DNA from: a virus
Direction: 5' to 3' (one strand)
Length of the DNA: 46,451 nt
Virus record (IMG/VR): IMGVR_UViG_3300017735_000018
Coordinates: 1 to 46,451 of that record
Shown here: one piece after another, positions 26,707 to 39,373 of the stretch
Layout: each line of letters starts with the position of its first letter
Position numbering within the stretch: position 1 is the first letter of the stretch
Translations under genes and position numbers: made by a program
The notes under the pieces: generated by a model
What the model was told of the DNA's origin: nothing
Databases searched by the model: none
The model's input: the letters and a program-made list of their open reading frames with translations, nothing else

Positions 26707-27789
26707 TTAACCAATTACTGGAGCTTTGATAGCAACAGGAGTGCTGCTAACAGAAGCCAAATCAAGAGGGAAGTTATGTGCATTTCTTTCATGCATTACC
26801 TCCATGCCTAAGCTGGCACGATTGAGGATGTCTGCCCAGGTGTTGATAACATGACCTTCACGTGAAACAATGGATTGATTAAAGTTAAATCCGTTGAGGT
26901 TGAAGGCCATGGTACTGACGCCGAGGCTGGTAAACCAGATGCCGACGACAGGCCATGCTGCCAGGAAGAAGTGAAGAGAGCGGCTATTGTTAAAAGAAGC
27001 ATATTGAAAAATAAGCCTACCAAAATAGCCGTGTGCGGCAACAATGTTGTAGGTCTCTTCTTCTTGTCCAAACTTGTATCCATTGTTATGTGATTCAGAT
27101 TCAGTAGTTTCACGTACGAGTGAGGAAGTGACCAATGAACCGTGCATAGCACTGAACAGTGAGCCACCGAAAACACCTGCTACTCCCATCATGTGGAAGG
27201 GGTGCATCAGGATGTTGTGCTCAGCTTGGAACACAAACATATAATTAAAGGTTCCAGAAATACCAAGAGGCATAGCATCCGAGAAGGAGCCCTGTCCAAA
27301 AGGATAAACCAAGAAAACTGCCGTAGCTGCTGCTACAGGCGCGGAGTAAGCTACGAAAATCCATGGTCTCATTCCTAATCGATAACTAAGTTCCCATTCG
27401 CGTCCCATGTAAGACCAGATACCAATGAGGAAATGGAAGACGACAAGTTGGAAAGGTCCTCCGTTGTAGAGCCATTCATCAAGAGAGGCTGCTTCCCAGA
27501 TGGGATACAAGTGGAGTCCGATTGCGTTACTTGAGGGTACGACTGCTCCGGAGATAATATTATTTCCGTAGAGGAGACTTCCGGCGACTGGTTCTCTAAT
27601 TCCATCAATGTCAACAGGTGGTGCTGCGATAAAAGCAATAATAAAACAGGTTGTAGCGGCGAGTAGACATGGCACCATCAGGACACCAAACCACCCTACA
27701 TATAGACGGTTATTTGTGGACGTCACCCACTCACAAAAGTAATCCCATGAGGATTTTTGTTGTGTAATTGTTGTTGCTGTTGCGACCAT
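26707..27789 (-). CDS. psbA: Photosystem II D1 protein
   Basis: A full 360-residue D1 reaction-centre protein that replaces the fast-turning-over host D1 and sustains photosynthesis during infection. Visible landmarks are [22 protein letters not shown], shown in part, then [31 protein letters not shown], and [19 protein letters not shown] with its pigment histidine. The loop [19 protein letters not shown] and the C-terminal [10 protein letters not shown] before the processing site are also present. The residue equivalent to D1 position 130 is Glu, as in high-light D1:2 forms. There is no intron. It lies between the scaffold-side tiny genes and the capsid gene, so it is probably co-transcribed with head genes. 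The ATG follows AATTAATT. Confidence 0.98.
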
Positions 27790-32572: not shown

Positions 32573-33952
32573 TTATTCTGCACAATCACTTTGAGGTTCA
32601 ATCGGTTGCTCCTCGAATAGGTTTGCCAAGTATTCATCTACATCTGCATCATCAAGAGCAGCATATGCATCAGACTTATCTTGTACATCACCCATTACTT
32701 GGAGGCTATAATAAAGAGAGGTTTGTGGAGACCGTAGCCACTCTTCAATAAATTCCTCATTCATTGTTGCCATATCTGACCACCAATTAAAAGAGTATCC
32801 GTGAAGAAGTCCACTGCTTTGGTACAGTTTCATAATACCGTCAGCAACAGCTTTGTAGTTATCCCATCCAACTTCGGATGCGATTTCTACTTCGCCATAA
32901 TCATAAGTTTGAACACCAAAGGTTCCAGAATCACGGTCAACTGTCCGTGCAATAGGTGGTGCGATCTCAGGAGTACAAGTGAACCCGTCAGTGTCCTGTG
33001 AGCGGTAGCTACAAGACGCTGTGGGAGCGATAGCAAACGCTCGAACCATATTGTGTTGGCGAGCTATTTCAGAGGCTTCCTTGATGCCTTGAGCAATGCG
33101 TGTGACTAGCTCGTAGGCAACGGTTGCTCTGGTGTCGTTGTTATTGAAGTGTTCAAGTGCACGTCCAAATTGCTCGTAACTAACGTTGTATCTCCGCAAG
33201 AGATTTGCGAGACCCAATACTCCAAGTCCAACCTGTCGATCAGAGGTAGAAGGTAGGTACTCTCCAGTCTCTCCAACACCTGTCTTTGCATGTAACTCAC
33301 AAAGTTCTTGCATCCCGACACGGTAAGCTTTTGGGATGTCTTCATATGTACAGGCTCCAAGACAGACGTGCTGTAACAAGCAAGTCCCGCGACTTGGCAG
33401 GTACACTTCAAGGCAAACGTTTCCACGTATTCTCTTTGTTCCTTCATACTTAACTTTATTCAGCCAGACATCACCGGCTTTGATTGCTTGTAATAGTTTT
33501 GCTTTTGTATTGGCAGACATATCCTTCCACCATTCATCAGTGATGTTTACACATCGCTTCACCCATGGCAGTTGCTCACGTGGTGTGGTGATGAACTCAT
33601 TGATGTCAGGATGCGATGCGTCAAGGTGGAGAACTATCGCACCGTTCTTGTATTTTCCTCCACGTCTGAGAGTTTCATTGAGGCTACTATAAATCCTTCC
33701 AAACGATACTGGACCTGAAGCAATAAGTCCGCTGCCATTGTCGCTTCCTCTCGGTCGTAGTCTTGAAAGGTGGATCGCGCATCCAGCGCCATTACGGAGT
33801 GCATGAGAGGCGAAACGCCATGAGTCTTCGATTCCATTAGGACCCTCCATTGAGTCTTCAACAACAAATACTGTGCAGGACACTGGCAAGCGTCCTTCGG
33901 GATCATCGATCCAAGATTGCACCCTTCCGGTGCGGGAGATAAGATTAGGCAT
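32573..33952 (-). CDS. nrdA: Ribonucleotide reductase alpha subunit (class I-like)
   Basis: The 459-residue catalytic subunit is compact and lacks the N-terminal ATP-cone of larger enzymes. The active-site loop reads NVCLE (Asn178, Cys180, Glu182), with redox cysteines at Cys26 (PVSCTVF) and Cys191 or Cys197 (GTCLLQHVC). The phosphate-binding APTASCSY and the barrel stretch GAIVLHLDASHPDINEF are also present. It reduces ribonucleotides for phage DNA synthesis. Such short phage alpha subunits have been mistaken for class II because of length; the neighbouring nrdB supports class I. It overlaps the MazG-like stop by eight bases. Confidence 0.9.
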   Translation of the reverse strand: MPNLISRTGRVQSWIDDPEGRLPVSCTVFVVEDSMEGPNGIEDSWRFASHALRNGAGCAIHLSRLRPRGSDNGSGLIASGPVSFGRIYSSLNETLRRGGKYKNGAIVLHLDASHPDINEFITTPREQLPWVKRCVNITDEWWKDMSANTKAKLLQAIKAGDVWLNKVKYEGTKRIRGNVCLEVYLPSRGTCLLQHVCLGACTYEDIPKAYRVGMQELCELHAKTGVGETGEYLPSTSDRQVGLGVLGLANLLRRYNVSYEQFGRALEHFNNNDTRATVAYELVTRIAQGIKEASEIARQHNMVRAFAIAPTASCSYRSQDTDGFTCTPEIAPPIARTVDRDSGTFGVQTYDYGEVEIASEVGWDNYKAVADGIMKLYQSSGLLHGYSFNWWSDMATMNEEFIEEWLRSPQTSLYYSLQVMGDVQDKSDAYAALDDADVDEYLANLFEEQPIEPQSDCAE

Positions 33953-34328
33953 TTACTAGATCTTTCAAATTAGGTGGTTGATATTCTGGTCCTTTTAAGA
34001 CCTTGCCATCTGCTCGTCGAATAGGCTTACCATCCAGACCAAGCTTTGACATGTTTGATTTATGGACACGATCCAAAGCCTCCTCTAAATCCCATTCCAT
34101 ATTCTCTGCATATTGAAAGCAGACATACACAAGATCTGCTAGTTCTTTTAATTCATTTTCGTACGGCTCATTATTAACAGCTGATCTAAACTCTTCAAAC
34201 TCTTCAGCGATCAAAGCCAGTTGCATAGTCCGGTTCTCCAATGAGTTCTGGGTCCCATAAGCCAGCCGAAACTGCATTGCTTGATCGGATAGTGACTGAC
34301 TGACACAATGGCGTGTGTTGGAGTTCAT
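33945..34328 (-). CDS. mazG: MazG-like nucleotide pyrophosphohydrolase
   Basis: I start at ATG 34328 (127 residues); a longer frame upstream is shadowed by the DUF3310 gene. The MazG/all-alpha NTP pyrophosphatase motif is clear: IAEEFEEF, then ELKELADLVYVCFQYAE (the EExxE...ExxD metal site). The C-terminal part DRVHKSNMSKLGLDGKPIRR and GKVLKGPEYQPP is typical of phage MazG-like proteins. They hydrolyse (d)NTPs or related nucleotides. It lies next to nrdA and so fits nucleotide metabolism. Its first 125 bases overlap the DUF3310 gene in another frame. Confidence 0.9.
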   Translation of the reverse strand: MNSNTRHCVSQSLSDQAMQFRLAYGTQNSLENRTMQLALIAEEFEEFRSAVNNEPYENELKELADLVYVCFQYAENMEWDLEEALDRVHKSNMSKLGLDGKPIRRADGKVLKGPEYQPPNLKDLVNA

Positions 34329-34506
34329 TTTCAAGATAGTGGATAGCTTTTTTAAGGTCTTCCGCTTTCGTTGCAGGAGACTTGTGACCGGCTCTGCAAA
34401 TATATTTAATAGCATTACCAAGATGATAGTTGAGGTCTTGGTCTCTAATGAAATCCCAAACCTCAATGTTGCCACGGGTGTAGTGACTGGGTGATTTGTT
34501 TACCAT
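34204..34506 (-). CDS. DUF3310 family protein
   Basis: The 100-residue protein has the DUF3310 pattern SPSHYTRGNIEVWDFIRDQD, then GNAIKYICRAGHK and EDLKKAIHYLENEL in its first 65 residues. DUF3310 proteins are common in phages beside nucleotide-metabolism genes; some related phage proteins are inhibitors or SaV-like factors, but no role is established here. The final 40 residues run over the start of the MazG-like gene and have no family match. They are probably overprinted sequence. The ATG overlaps the stop of the NblA-like gene. Confidence 0.85.
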   Translation of the reverse strand: MVNKSPSHYTRGNIEVWDFIRDQDLNYHLGNAIKYICRAGHKSPATKAEDLKKAIHYLENELQHTPLCQSVTIRSSNAVSAGLWDPELIGEPDYATGFDR

Positions 34507-34649
34507 TGAGCCAATAAGTTTTTAACGTTGTTGCCTAAGACAAAACACTGACGTTGTAGTGCAAGTAGAATAGTAATCATATCTTCTCTACTTGCTTTCT
34601 CTAATCCGTCTTCCAGTTGTCTCATCTTAAACTCTTGCTCCATCGTCAT
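34500..34649 (-). CDS. nblA: NblA-like phycobilisome degradation protein
   Basis: I start at ATG 34649, one base after the exonuclease stop; upstream ATGs fall inside that gene. The 49-residue product begins MTMEQEFKMRQLEDGLEKAS and ends NNVKNLLAQW. It follows the NblA pattern: (V/M)EQEF(K/Q)(M/L)R near the N-terminus, S-R-E-(D/Q) at the turn, then a second helix ending LL.QW, as in host NblA (EQEFQLR...SREQ...LKHQW). NblA directs phycobilisomes to Clp protease. Phage homologues are known from freshwater myoviruses and marine cyanophages. The length is slightly below host NblA (about 55-65). The family call is by eye and should be tested by profile search. Confidence 0.7.
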   Translation of the reverse strand: MTMEQEFKMRQLEDGLEKASREDMITILLALQRQCFVLGNNVKNLLAQW

Positions 34650-34650
34650 G

Positions 34651-35367
34651 TCAGTCACCGGAAACGGTGGGACTGAAGAGGATCGGTTGTTTGTCATAGT
34701 CTTTAGAGGTGAGGATCTTTGCAAGACGTGCGTTTCGTAAAGCATCCTCTTCTGTCAGACCTTTTTGTTTGAATGCTTTGACAACACTATTCCAAGTGTA
34801 TCCATTATCAGCAAAAAATTTTGCGCTAGTTTTTATGCCGTAGCCGGGTGCTCCTGAGTAACCATCAGTAGAGTCACCTGCAAGTGTTTGGATCAGGAAC
34901 CATTCCCATCCTTCTTGCTCAGTAATAGTGAAGGTTTCAGTTAGATTGTACAACGTACCAGGTATCTGTTTCATATCCTTATCAGGAGATACAATAATGC
35001 AGTCATCATTCGATGTTGCATAAATACCCATGGCATCGTCTGCTTCTAAGGTAGGCATCCTGATTAATGGATAGTTGTCAGCAAGCTTGTTTATTACTCG
35101 CTTATAGCCGCATGGCTTCTTCCTGTTACGATGACCCTTGTAGTCAGGATCAACCATTTTACGGAAGTTGATAGAGTCACTAAAGAATAGGATTAGTTCT
35201 CCATCAAAGTATTGGTTTTTAATTTTGTTCAATTCACGGATAGTATTGCCATAGGCTTCCTTGAATGAACTTCCAACTACAATTACATCATCACCATAAT
35301 CAATGTCGTATTCTGCTGATGCACAGCATTTATATACGATGTAATCAGCATCTATTAGTAGTTTCAT
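34651..35367 (-). CDS. 5'-3' exonuclease (T7 gp6-like)
   Basis: The 238-residue protein belongs to the FEN/5' nuclease superfamily. It begins MKLLIDADYIVYKCC (first metal Asp). Further marks are FFSDSINFRKMVDPDYKGHR, then LEADDAMGIYA, CIIVSPDKDMKQIPG and AGDSTDGYSGAPGYGIKTSAK, the last being the helix-hairpin-helix DNA-binding part. T7 gp6 degrades host DNA, recycling nucleotides, and removes RNA primers. It follows the DNA polymerase and precedes nblA, the normal replication-module order. Confidence 0.92.
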   Translation of the reverse strand: MKLLIDADYIVYKCCASAEYDIDYGDDVIVVGSSFKEAYGNTIRELNKIKNQYFDGELILFFSDSINFRKMVDPDYKGHRNRKKPCGYKRVINKLADNYPLIRMPTLEADDAMGIYATSNDDCIIVSPDKDMKQIPGTLYNLTETFTITEQEGWEWFLIQTLAGDSTDGYSGAPGYGIKTSAKFFADNGYTWNSVVKAFKQKGLTEEDALRNARLAKILTSKDYDKQPILFSPTVSGD

Positions 35368-35375
35368 TTAGTGGT

Positions 35376-36713
35376 TTAATGGGTAGTACTCCAGTTATCT
35401 CCTTGCACTGCTTCTGCTTCGATTTTAATCCGTAAGTTGTAGTATTCTCCAGCCTCGATAGCGCTAAGTACCAAGGATGAACGTAAATCTTCGACATGTT
35501 TTGGTTCTACTTCAAATTGTAATTCGTCGTGTACAAAAGCTAACTGACTACAGCAAAGCTTTAGTTCTTTTATGTGGTCTTGATTGATCACCATCCATCG
35601 TTTAGCGATCGTGGCGGCTCCGCTCTGAAGCAAGAAATTTAATGCCTTGTGAGGTGAATCAACCGCAATTTTTCTTCCATCGAGAGATCGTATGGAGCCT
35701 TGTTCCGCAACTTTCTTAATTGCTTCCAAGAGTTCACCGAGTCCTTCAATAGCTTCCACATATGCTGATCTAATCTCTTTACCTTTGCGTTTGGCAGCTG
35801 ATGTTGATAGTTGTGGGTCATAAGAATGTCCTATTTTTTCATCACCCGCTCCATACAGCATTGCGTAGCTTACGGTTTTTACTTGTCGCCTTGAAATTCC
35901 AATTTTGTCGGCATTGACTTGGTGGATGTCATCTTCAAGTAATAACTTTGCGTATCTCCCTTCGTCATAACGAGCAAGGTAATGAGCGAGCATACGAAGC
36001 TCAATCCCAGACAAGTCAGCGCCGACCATAGTGAGACCTTCGCTTGGAATAAAGAGTCGTCGAAATCTTACATCAGAATTTACTTGGGCGAGGTTTGGAT
36101 TACGATGAGCACAACGATGGGTATTAGTAGATACACTGCAATGATGATGTAATCTGCCATTAGTCGTACATAGCTTCAGCCAAGCGTTCGCGCCTTGAGA
36201 GACTTGACCAAGCATTTTCGTTACCGTCAAACATCTCAGAAACATCATAGAAATCTCTGACCCTATCTCTTTCAGAATCACTTCGTCGATGATAGGTTTC
36301 CCAGTAGTTGTCAGCTGGATCGGAATCCAGCCATAGTATGTTTGCAATATCCATGCAATGTGATCTCTTGAGGTTGGATTAAATTCTTTCAGTCGAGTAA
36401 TGGGTGCACCCTTGACATATCCCTGTGTGCGGTTATCTCGTTTCGGAGTGAATTCTCCTCCTCTAACGTAAGGGTGTCGCCGTCGAAGTATCTCTTGAGT
36501 GTCTCGAAGTTCTTGTTCGAGAGTCGATGTAAGTTTCCATGCAGCAGGTTCATCAAATCGCCAGCCATGTATCTCCTGTTGAGTAAGTATTTCCTGAACT
36601 CGATGTTCTAACGAGATCCATTCAGGTATGGTGTAAAGTGTTTCCAAAGTTTGGTGGTGACGTGTACATCTTGTATGCAGTAATCTTCCATCTCTTGTGA
36701 CCAGTCTTTCCAA
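35376..36713 (-). CDS. DNA polymerase, polymerase domain (T7 gp5-like), separate frame
   Basis: This frame holds the family A polymerase domain. Motif A is GADLSGIELRMLAHYLARYD. Motif B is RRQVKTVSYAMLYGAGDEKI, with Tyr at the position of T7 Tyr526. Motif C is LAFVHDELQFEVEP. Homology begins at PEWISLEHRVQEIL (from about 36626). The first 29 residues are a shadow of the exonuclease frame, and no ATG lies between, so an independent start is unclear. The exonuclease domain is in the -1-related frame just upstream. Expression needs a -1 frameshift, an unusual start, or the break is a mutation or sequence error. Confidence 0.88.
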   Translation of the reverse strand: MERLVTRDGRLLHTRCTRHHQTLETLYTIPEWISLEHRVQEILTQQEIHGWRFDEPAAWKLTSTLEQELRDTQEILRRRHPYVRGGEFTPKRDNRTQGYVKGAPITRLKEFNPTSRDHIAWILQTYYGWIPIQLTTTGKPIIDEVILKEIGSEISMMFLRCLTVTKMLGQVSQGANAWLKLCTTNGRLHHHCSVSTNTHRCAHRNPNLAQVNSDVRFRRLFIPSEGLTMVGADLSGIELRMLAHYLARYDEGRYAKLLLEDDIHQVNADKIGISRRQVKTVSYAMLYGAGDEKIGHSYDPQLSTSAAKRKGKEIRSAYVEAIEGLGELLEAIKKVAEQGSIRSLDGRKIAVDSPHKALNFLLQSGAATIAKRWMVINQDHIKELKLCCSQLAFVHDELQFEVEPKHVEDLRSSLVLSAIEAGEYYNLRIKIEAEAVQGDNWSTTH

Positions 36714-37138
36714 TCAGAACTGGCACCGAATGAACCTTTAAATTCACCTAATCTGTAACCGTAGGACTCTAAAGAATGTCTGCCGTATAACTTCAACGGC
36801 ATATGCTTCCAATTATGTTTCTTGTCTACCTTGATCATATCCGGATGGTATAACCTAGATAAAAGTAAAGTATCAATAGTGATACCAGGAGACTTAAACC
36901 AACCGTAAAGTTTCCGAATAACAGGAAGATCGTAGCCAATAATGTTGTGCCCGATAACCAGATCAGCATCCTGGAGTCGTTGTATCCCACGTACAACAGG
37001 CTCCTGAGAACCCGTGTCGTTGTATGTGATAGTTTTCTCAGTATCGAGATCATGAATAGCTAGACAGTGAACAGTAGATACATCTCTTAGAAACCCATTA
37101 GTCTCTAAATCAAAAACAAGACTCACTTCCCTGTCCAT
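36608..37138 (-). CDS. DNA polymerase, 3'-5' exonuclease domain, separate frame
   Basis: The 176-residue frame carries the complete proofreading domain of a T7 gp5-like polymerase. Exo I is VFDLETNG, exo II is DLVIGHNIIGYDLPVIRKLYGW and exo III is YCIQDVHVTTKLW, with all the metal-binding acids. It runs into KHFTPYL and then stops four codons later (NGSR), exactly where a T7-like polymerase should pass into the polymerase domain. That domain continues in another frame. It could act as a split subunit or be half of one interrupted gene. It overlaps the preceding small gene by 16 bases. Confidence 0.88.
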   Translation of the reverse strand: MDREVSLVFDLETNGFLRDVSTVHCLAIHDLDTEKTITYNDTGSQEPVVRGIQRLQDADLVIGHNIIGYDLPVIRKLYGWFKSPGITIDTLLLSRLYHPDMIKVDKKHNWKHMPLKLYGRHSLESYGYRLGEFKGSFGASSDWKDWSQEMEDYCIQDVHVTTKLWKHFTPYLNGSR

Positions 37139-37317
37139 ACGTAGGTCTTATCAACGAACTGTGCTCGCTTGATAGCCTCCTCAGTAGGTGGTTTAGGTTT
37201 GTTTAATTCAGGCACAGCAATACGAAAAGCTAGACCTTCTTCTTCAAAGTGTTTGTTCATCTCTATGTACTCAGAAATCTGTTGATGGGTTAAATTCTTC
37301 TTCTGGTTCTGTTTCAT
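37123..37317 (-). CDS. Small protein between helicase and DNA polymerase
   Basis: The frame is 64 residues from ATG 37317; ATG 37263, just after the helicase stop, gives 45 residues and avoids a 47-base overlap. The unique part reads MNKHFEEEGLAFRIAVPELN followed by a KPKPPTEEAIKRAQ helix and FVDKTYVWTGK. It is charged and small, with no recognised family. T7 also carries small genes between helicase and polymerase. Position and tight spacing support coding; the function is unknown. Confidence 0.6.
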   Translation of the reverse strand: MKQNQKKNLTHQQISEYIEMNKHFEEEGLAFRIAVPELNKPKPPTEEAIKRAQFVDKTYVWTGK

Positions 37318-38881
37318 TAAACTTACAAGTTTCTAAATCATACGCGAGTGTACAGGCTACGCCAGTTTCGCCTGAATAACGATTTTTAAGGACTCTAACT
37401 GTCGTAGAACTTCCATCTTTGTCGGACTGTTGATCTCTCTCCAATCCAATGACACTATCGCTGAGTTGAGCAATAGCAGCAGATCCTCGCAATTGACCGA
37501 GTGTGACTCGTGCTCCTTCTTCATGATTTTTGTCGCCTCCTGAGCGACGTAAGTGTGATACAAGGAACAGGGCAATTCCAGTACGTTCAACCAATGACCT
37601 TAGTTTTGTCATGGTTGCATCAATCATTCGTCGCTCATCTCCTTCGAGACCAGACAACAAAATGGATAGGTGATCAAGAAATATGACTCGGCAATCTAGA
37701 CCCTGAGCAAGATACTCAATGCGACTATATATAACATCAGGATCGTAGGAGCCGAAGCCATCAAACAAATAGAGATTCCAATCAACCATCGTAGAATCGA
37801 ACGCTTCCGTAAGTTCTTCATGTGTAGGTTCTCCTAGATGTAATGCTTTACCTATCGCAGAAGACATCAAGCCTAAAGCGGTTCTCCTATTTGACTCCTC
37901 AAGAGCCAAGTAACCAACTCGTTCTCCTCTTTTAAGTAGAGAAGTTGCAAGTTCACGACAGAAGCTGGACTTGCCAATACCAGATCCCGCAGTGATTGTA
38001 ACAAGCTCTCCATACCTGATCCCGTGTGTAAGTCTTTGAAGACCGTCGAATGGATAGTCATGATCGTTAGGTGGATTAGGTGTAGTAATTTCGTTTAGAA
38101 GACTTTTGCCTTCTACAATTCCGTCAGGTCTGTAAAATGACCTGCTGTTAAACGCATCATCTATTGCAGCATAATCTCCTGCTTGTAATGCGTCTGAGAG
38201 GTCTTTATAAGCCTCTAATTTTGCGATGGAAACCTTACCAGGTGGTAAGACACCAGCTGCTGCTTTAGACGCATCACAGCCTGGCTCATCATTGTCAAAC
38301 CAAAGGAGAATTTCTTCATAATTTTGAAGAAACTCGAAGTTCTTTTGTACTGATTTTCTTGCACTGGTTGCTCCATTAGGTAGTGATACAACATCCCATG
38401 TTGGTCGTATTTGACCATAGGTAGCTGCATCTAGTTCTCCTTCAGTAATTACAATTCTCTTGCCATGTCCACGACAGAGATGCTGACCGAAGAATCGTCC
38501 ATCAGTCTCACCTTCATAGGAGAAGACTTTATTTAGGGTGCGTGTTTTTGCACCAATAAGTCGTCCGTCTTCATTGTGATAATGGAATCGTAAGGTATCA
38601 CCATCTCGGTAAATCTTAAACCTTTCACAGGTTGCTTCACTAAGTCCGCGTTTATCCAAACGGGTGGCGACACCTTTGTAATGGGTGGTCATAACGCTTT
38701 TTTTAGTAACAACAGTATCGTTGCCGGGAGACCATTCCTGACAAACAAAGCAAAAAGTGTGCTCATCTGTATAGACAGCTAAGCCGTCAGATGAGCCACA
38801 GCTAGGACATGCTTCATGTCTTATAAACTCAGAGGAACCATTCTCCTGGAATGTTTCCGAAGCTGGCCCATAGTATTTCAT
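37271..38881 (-). CDS. Primase/helicase (T7 gp4-like)
   Basis: The 536-residue bifunctional replication protein primes and unwinds DNA at the fork. The N-terminal zinc finger has Cys25, Cys28, Cys44 and Cys47. The TOPRIM primase has ITEGELDA (about 145-152) and WFDNDEPG (about 194-201). The RecA-like helicase has Walker A AGSGIGKSS (298-306), then VIFLDHLSIL and FLVSHLRR, with a final arginine-finger region RGSAAIAQLSDSVIGLERD. The C-terminus is acidic (EPEEEFNPSTDF), as in T7, for polymerase contact. It overlaps the endonuclease gene by 53 bases. Confidence 0.95.
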   Translation of the reverse strand: MKYYGPASETFQENGSSEFIRHEACPSCGSSDGLAVYTDEHTFCFVCQEWSPGNDTVVTKKSVMTTHYKGVATRLDKRGLSEATCERFKIYRDGDTLRFHYHNEDGRLIGAKTRTLNKVFSYEGETDGRFFGQHLCRGHGKRIVITEGELDAATYGQIRPTWDVVSLPNGATSARKSVQKNFEFLQNYEEILLWFDNDEPGCDASKAAAGVLPPGKVSIAKLEAYKDLSDALQAGDYAAIDDAFNSRSFYRPDGIVEGKSLLNEITTPNPPNDHDYPFDGLQRLTHGIRYGELVTITAGSGIGKSSFCRELATSLLKRGERVGYLALEESNRRTALGLMSSAIGKALHLGEPTHEELTEAFDSTMVDWNLYLFDGFGSYDPDVIYSRIEYLAQGLDCRVIFLDHLSILLSGLEGDERRMIDATMTKLRSLVERTGIALFLVSHLRRSGGDKNHEEGARVTLGQLRGSAAIAQLSDSVIGLERDQQSDKDGSSTTVRVLKNRYSGETGVACTLAYDLETCKFNETEPEEEFNPSTDF

Positions 38882-39182
38882 TTTTCTCGCACCATCGTGC
38901 GTACGTAGTCTTAGATTTTTTACTAATGGTATTAAAGGGTGCTTGAAAGACCATCCTTAGATCGATCTCTGGATGCTGCTGTTTGACGGCTTTAATCTTC
39001 CGACGATCCTCAGCCTCCCAGTACCCTTTGCACTCAAGATAGATGCCGTTAGGCAGAAGAAAATCAGGAGTGTAAATATGCTCAATCGTGTAGGGAATTT
39101 GTTTTGATTCATATTCATATTCAATTCCCAAGTCAACCATCAGATCAGCGACTTTCTCCTCTAGTCCTGACCGAAAAGCCAT
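38829..39182 (-). CDS. Endonuclease I, Holliday junction resolvase (T7 gp3-like)
   Basis: At 117 residues this is a compact T7 gp3. FRSGLEEKVADLMVDLGIEY and YTPDFLLPNGIYLECKGYWE match the T7 pattern, the latter giving the catalytic PD...(E)xK nuclease acids. HPEIDLRMVFQ and WCEKNEILWA follow, as in gp3. It resolves branched DNA before packaging and breaks host DNA. The ATG overlaps the hli stop, and the 3' end overlaps the helicase start. Confidence 0.93.
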   Translation of the reverse strand: MAFRSGLEEKVADLMVDLGIEYEYESKQIPYTIEHIYTPDFLLPNGIYLECKGYWEAEDRRKIKAVKQQHPEIDLRMVFQAPFNTISKKSKTTYARWCEKNEILWASFGNIPGEWFL

Positions 39183-39373
39183 TACCAGATCCCAGGAATG
39201 AGCTGGCCGGTAAAGGCGTATGCACCCAGTGCCGCGACCATACCAAGCATAGCCAAGCGTCCATTAAGCTTTTCAGCCTTTTCATTGTGTGTTTCAGTGA
39301 TGTCCATACTTTTCATTGGTGGTTCTTTTGCGAATAAGTTCAAGCGTCCTTGATCTTCAGAAGTCAGAGTCAT
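39182..39373 (-). CDS. hli: High-light-inducible protein
   Basis: The 63-residue protein has the Hli/chlorophyll-binding motif EKLNGRLAMLGMVAALGAYA (Glu34-x-x-Asn37-Gly-Arg39) in one membrane helix, followed by TGQLIPG. Hli proteins bind chlorophyll and carotenoid in thylakoids and protect against excess light; in cyanophages they support host photosystems. The start at 39373 overlaps ssb by 17 bases; an internal ATG at 39316 would give a 44-residue core. The gene sits in the replication module between ssb and endonuclease I, away from psbA, so it is likely expressed earlier. Confidence 0.95.
   Translation of the reverse strand: MTLTSEDQGRLNLFAKEPPMKSMDITETHNEKAEKLNGRLAMLGMVAALGAYAFTGQLIPGIW

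Follow-up and report, generated by a model that had tools for sequence, protein, structure and literature searches.

A gene for a 49-residue protein in a virus that, judged from its gene content, is a T7-like cyanophage (IMG/VR record IMGVR_UViG_3300017735_000018; the window is the whole stretch analysed, 46,451 nucleotides) in all likelihood encodes a viral NblA, an adaptor for degradation of the host phycobilisome via ClpC/Clp. This reading is supported by a match to the Pfam NblA family (PF04485), a predicted helical hairpin, gene order, purifying selection and the co-occurrence of psbA and hli in this genome. Counting against it are an alanine (Ala47) at the position of Anabaena Lys53, the low confidence of some of the structure models and the extension of the family to phages of phycobilisome-free Prochlorococcus. 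Viral nblA is already known in the same phage group, and the gene of this record adds one clear member.

Reading frame and genomic context of the nblA-like gene

The nblA-like gene lies on the minus strand at 34500..34649, running from an ATG at 34649 to a TAA that ends at 34500, and its product is MTMEQEFKMRQLEDGLEKASREDMITILLALQRQCFVLGNNVKNLLAQW (49 aa). An earlier sequence-only reading had given these coordinates and the 49-residue product correctly but had left the strand unstated; translation of 34500-34649 on the plus strand is interrupted by stops. The list of open reading frames holds a longer 81-aa frame (34500-34745) that runs back into the exonuclease gene. Among relatives the start falls on the same ATG, on a TTG or another Leu codon in its place, or on Met3, which (at 34643) is a possible internal start here as well.

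All genes described below are on the minus strand. Directly upstream of nblA is a T7-like exonuclease (34651..35367; phrog_107, 2.4e-62; PF02739, 2.5e-10), whose stop codon is separated from the nblA ATG by one base. The next gene downstream, a DUF3310 (nucleotide-kinase-like) gene (34204..34506; PF11753, 9.6e-17; phrog_236, 7e-24), shares the first 7 bases with the end of nblA. A MazG-like nucleotide pyrophosphohydrolase ORF (33945..34475; PF01503, 4.2e-9; PF03819, 4e-5; phrog_671, 1.3e-32), in which the true start of the gene is probably further in, and a ribonucleotide reductase (32573..33952; PF02867, 1.1e-23; phrog_367, 4.7e-49) complete this order within a T7-like replication block, and the same arrangement is found in the same region of S-TIP37, P-SSP2, S-CBP1 and NATL1A-7. 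The earlier placement of the gene between exonuclease and MazG-like genes therefore stands on the exonuclease side, whereas the immediate downstream neighbour is the DUF3310 gene and the MazG-like gene comes next.

The record also encodes a primase/helicase (37271..38881; phrog_239, 1.1e-175), RNA polymerase, ssDNA-binding protein, and tail and capsid genes. The DNA polymerase A gene looks split into two frames, an exonuclease part (36608-37138) and a polymerase part (35376..36713; PF00476, 1.1e-38); it is annotated likewise in S-TIP37 and P-SSP7, and may be a split gene or involve a programmed frameshift. Both photosynthesis genes named in the sequence-only reading were found, namely psbA for the photosystem II D1 protein (26707..27789; PF00124, 8.4e-89) and hli for a high-light-inducible protein (39182..39373; phrog_178, 6e-27), the product of the latter scoring 20.0 bits against PF00504, slightly below the cut-off of 22.3. 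Every phage psbA gene among the matches listed belongs to a Synechococcus phage or to a phage sampled alongside one. For the replication block, too, the best matches for which a host is known come from Synechococcus phages, and a phycobilisome-bearing Synechococcus is therefore the likely host. Copies of psbA 88-90% identical to the product of this record also occur in assemblies labelled Proteobacteria, Gammaproteobacteria and Porticoccaceae (L096, L100 and L111), which are probably misbinned cyanobacterial or cyanophage contigs.

Membership of the NblA family

The 49-aa protein matches PF04485 with 36.1 bits (E 8.9e-9; curated cut-off 25 bits), residues 2-47 being aligned to profile positions 3-48 of 50, and a six-frame search identified this gene as the sole PF04485 match in the 46 kb record. 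Because the Pfam model may contain phage sequences, a control profile was built from eight cyanobacterial NblA sequences with phage sequences left out. Against this profile the protein scored 27.9 bits, no more than 12.8 bits was reached by any of 10,000 shuffled versions of it, and all 39 aligned relatives scored at least 16.0 bits. Profile-profile comparison with Nostoc and Synechocystis NblA gave 95.3% probability and an E-value of 2.2e-8 over 48 gapless columns, and phrog_27006 was matched at 8e-20. The NblA identity, originally proposed from an EQEF(K)MR...SRE...QW pattern, is thus borne out by a significant profile match far beyond chance. The N-terminal EQ-F motif itself (E4 and Q5 invariant, F7 present in at least 90% of the phage family) is common to the solved NblAs, and the 49-aa length was counted as fitting the NblA family (~50-65 aa). 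A sequence-only search of the PDB returned three NblA chains (2QDO, 2Q8V and 3CS5) and nothing else, with weak E-values of 0.11-0.91; with the family profile, 3CS5 was recovered weakly (0.06) amid chance hits. NCBIfam gave no match for the 49-aa protein.

Cyanobacterial NblAs (Anabaena 1OJH, T. vulcanus 2QDO/2Q8V and S. elongatus 3CS5) share with the phage protein the full-length PF04485 match, the EQ-F motif and the C-terminal Leu. The phage protein is shorter (49 versus about 60 aa) and ~22-38% identical to them, and its family is marked by an ALQRQ-FVLGNN segment that hardly varies and by a Trp at the C-terminus, neither of which the aligned cyanobacterial NblAs have.

Predicted structure and binding residues

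Cyanobacterial NblA is a helix-loop-helix protein that forms a four-helix-bundle dimer (PMC7966870), and its C-terminus is the phycobilisome-binding part (PMC7760959). AlphaFold2 with the family alignment predicts helices at residues 3-18 and 21-48 for the phage protein, the best model having a mean pLDDT of 94.5; the five models span 63.5-94.5, with two above 90 and two below 70. In the predicted model, this layout of a short helix followed by a long one, as in the cyanobacterial proteins, is that of an NblA-like hairpin, so that the fold anticipated by the sequence-only reading was obtained for a single chain. Foldseek searches of the PDB and BFVD gave no match at any score, a 49-residue two-helix query being too short to inform. 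Leu51 and Lys53 of Anabaena NblA are reportedly important for phycobilisome binding, a finding attributed to Bienert et al. in 2006. In the alignment to Anabaena NblA (1OJH), Leu51 corresponds to Leu45 of the phage protein, which is invariant in the alignments, and Lys53 corresponds to Ala47, so that the Lys is not kept. The Lys53 position is occupied by Arg in S. elongatus 3CS5 and by Thr in S-TIP37, and is variable among phages.

Phage relatives and purifying selection

A scan of IMG/VR detected 101 relatives, 80 of which were retrieved, and the family alignment comprises 40 members (39 of them metagenomic relatives). All 40 members match PF04485 (best 1.2e-10) and keep the frame open. Among 27 distinct 147-base copies, changes are concentrated at third codon positions and the median dN/dS of moderately diverged pairs is ~0.06; the nblA-like gene is under strong purifying selection. 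Invariant residues include E4, Q5, K8, A30, L31, Q32, Q34, L38, G39, N40, L45 and W49. Homologues were found in 37 phage records, all of cyanophages or uncultured marine phages, and most are labelled as hypothetical proteins, unannotated, or covered only by an exonuclease annotation.

Several T7-like marine cyanophages (S-TIP37, S-CBP1/3/4, S-RIP2, KBS-P-1A, S-B28 and uncultured MedDCM phages) also carry nblA behind the exonuclease, with 51-61% identity; in S-TIP37 the same gene occupies the same place and is likewise above the PF04485 cut-off. S-TIP37 is also said to be the phage used by Nadel et al. in 2025. Compared with these genes, the close group of the record's gene ends at Trp49 and has Ala or Ser where Anabaena NblA has Lys53, whereas most relatives extend beyond the Trp. 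In S-RIP1, the deposited nblA (L003:1935-2088) is frameshifted mid-gene and an HNH endonuclease gene lies directly behind it, before the DUF3310 gene; the frameshift may reflect a mutation, an error in sequencing or the action of a homing endonuclease.

NblA had been predicted in 14 cyanopodoviruses (Nadel et al. 2019, as cited in PMC9602691), and expression of an uncultured marine phage nblA in S. elongatus led to phycobilin loss (PMC9602691). Viral NblA was then described as degrading the antenna and impairing oceanic cyanobacterial photosynthesis (Nadel et al. 2025, Nature 648:434-442, as cited in PMC12892361). The sequence-only reading did not mention that nblA in this phage group had been reported before. 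The freshwater phages Ma-LMM01, MaMV-DC and PaV-LD also carry nblA, whose heterologous expression has been reported to cause loss of phycobilin, but they are other phage types with freshwater hosts and their nblA genes group apart in the published tree (PMC9602691).

Orthologues in Prochlorococcus phages and alternative readings

Positional orthologues of the phage nblA are present in the Prochlorococcus podoviruses P-SSP7 (L002:2001-2153), P-SSP2, P-SSP3 and NATL1A-7 (L178, L179, L180:701-853), with the same position as in the record and ~47-51% identity. The P-SSP3 orthologue is identical to that of P-SSP2, and the three distinct sequences (P-SSP7, P-SSP2 and NATL1A-7) gave no match to PF04485 even at E 10. 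They retain E-Q, L45 and W49, and comparison of the P-SSP7 and P-SSP2 orthologues (pN 0.034, pS 0.76, overlaps left out) indicates purifying selection. Prochlorococcus lacks nblA as well as phycobilisomes (PMC7439483). The phage orthologues may act there on residual phycoerythrin or on some other target. The conservation of these orthologues in phages of such hosts favours a true NblA homologue with a shifted target, that is, a Clp adaptor for host proteins besides or instead of the phycobilisome, as do the nearly invariant ALQRQ-FVLGNN segment and C-terminal Trp that set the family apart from the aligned cyanobacterial NblAs, and the Ala at the Anabaena Lys53 position. However, the record's copy is well above the PF04485 cut-off, unlike the Prochlorococcus-phage copies, and therefore falls on the canonical side, and the psbA and replication genes nearest to those of the record belong mostly to phages of Synechococcus, a host that has phycobilisomes; we consider a shifted target for this protein quite unlikely. 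A broader form of the idea is that the NblA family of T7-like cyanophages includes Clp adaptors for host non-phycobilisome proteins, kept for that role in Prochlorococcus phages, and that phages like the present one may use both; this, too, seems unlikely.

Two further explanations would deny the gene an NblA function altogether. Its location in a replication block, the commonness of two-helix proteins and a weak PHROG match to a helicase loader (E 0.27) might suggest a small helical replication protein not related to NblA, the likeness having arisen through convergence between two short helices. Such convergence is hard to reconcile with a gapless full-length match that includes the EQ-F motif, and relatives of the same phage type have been recognised as nblA carriers (PMC9602691); the profile-profile E-value together with the shuffle control led us to reject this explanation, which we regard as highly improbable. 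A non-coding or decaying frame might likewise be suspected of a short gene that overlaps its neighbours, is often unannotated and is frameshifted in S-RIP1, but the low dN/dS and third-position excess, together with the frame kept open throughout the alignment, make this scarcely credible, and the selection pattern refutes it. A viral NblA acting on the phycobilisome is thus the reading that we retain.

Proposed role during infection

That NblA acts as an adaptor is established for the cyanobacterial protein (PMC7966870). By analogy, the viral NblA very probably drives destruction of the host antenna during infection; its dimerisation, phycobiliprotein binding, delivery to ClpC, the resulting antenna loss and a fitness gain are expected from what is known of its relatives. 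The product would form a dimer of two-helix hairpins, in which the long helix may bind phycobiliproteins of the host antenna through its C-terminal portion, and NblA would bring the bound antenna subunits to the host ClpC chaperone, allowing the Clp protease to degrade the phycobilisome. Since nblA sits directly behind the exonuclease stop in the replication block, co-transcription and translational coupling with the replication and nucleotide genes are probable, and the protein would be made during phage DNA copying. Antenna breakdown could then supply amino acids for phage proteins and leave a smaller antenna with less excitation pressure, and the phage D1 and Hli proteins would meanwhile keep photosystem II running. 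The gene adds a clear member to the class of viral genes by which light harvesting in the ocean is reduced and, together with psbA and hli, offers a compact case of a virus that would protect photosystem II yet shrink the antenna. Considering that the mechanism is already published, the gene is mainly of value for annotation and for the natural variation that it adds, above all in the C-terminal binding site.

Picocyanobacterial genomes and the origin of the gene

Of 300 genomes from the family to which Synechococcus RCC307 belongs, only 5 gave a match to PF04485, in two cases (L172 and L174) within phage-like gene blocks, and none matched a profile of the phage NblAs. Typical host genomes give no sign of a source for the phage nblA. 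A divergent nblA-like gene has been reported in WH8102 (PMC7439483), and absence of a PF04485 match is therefore not equal to functional absence. In the two picocyanobacterial assemblies with phage-like blocks (L172:1453-1677 and L174:1420-1707), the order is exonuclease, NblA-like gene and DUF3310/MazG, and the encoded NblA-like proteins, which have 74 and 95 aa, respectively, are longer as well as divergent; these blocks are probably phage contigs or prophage-like stretches.
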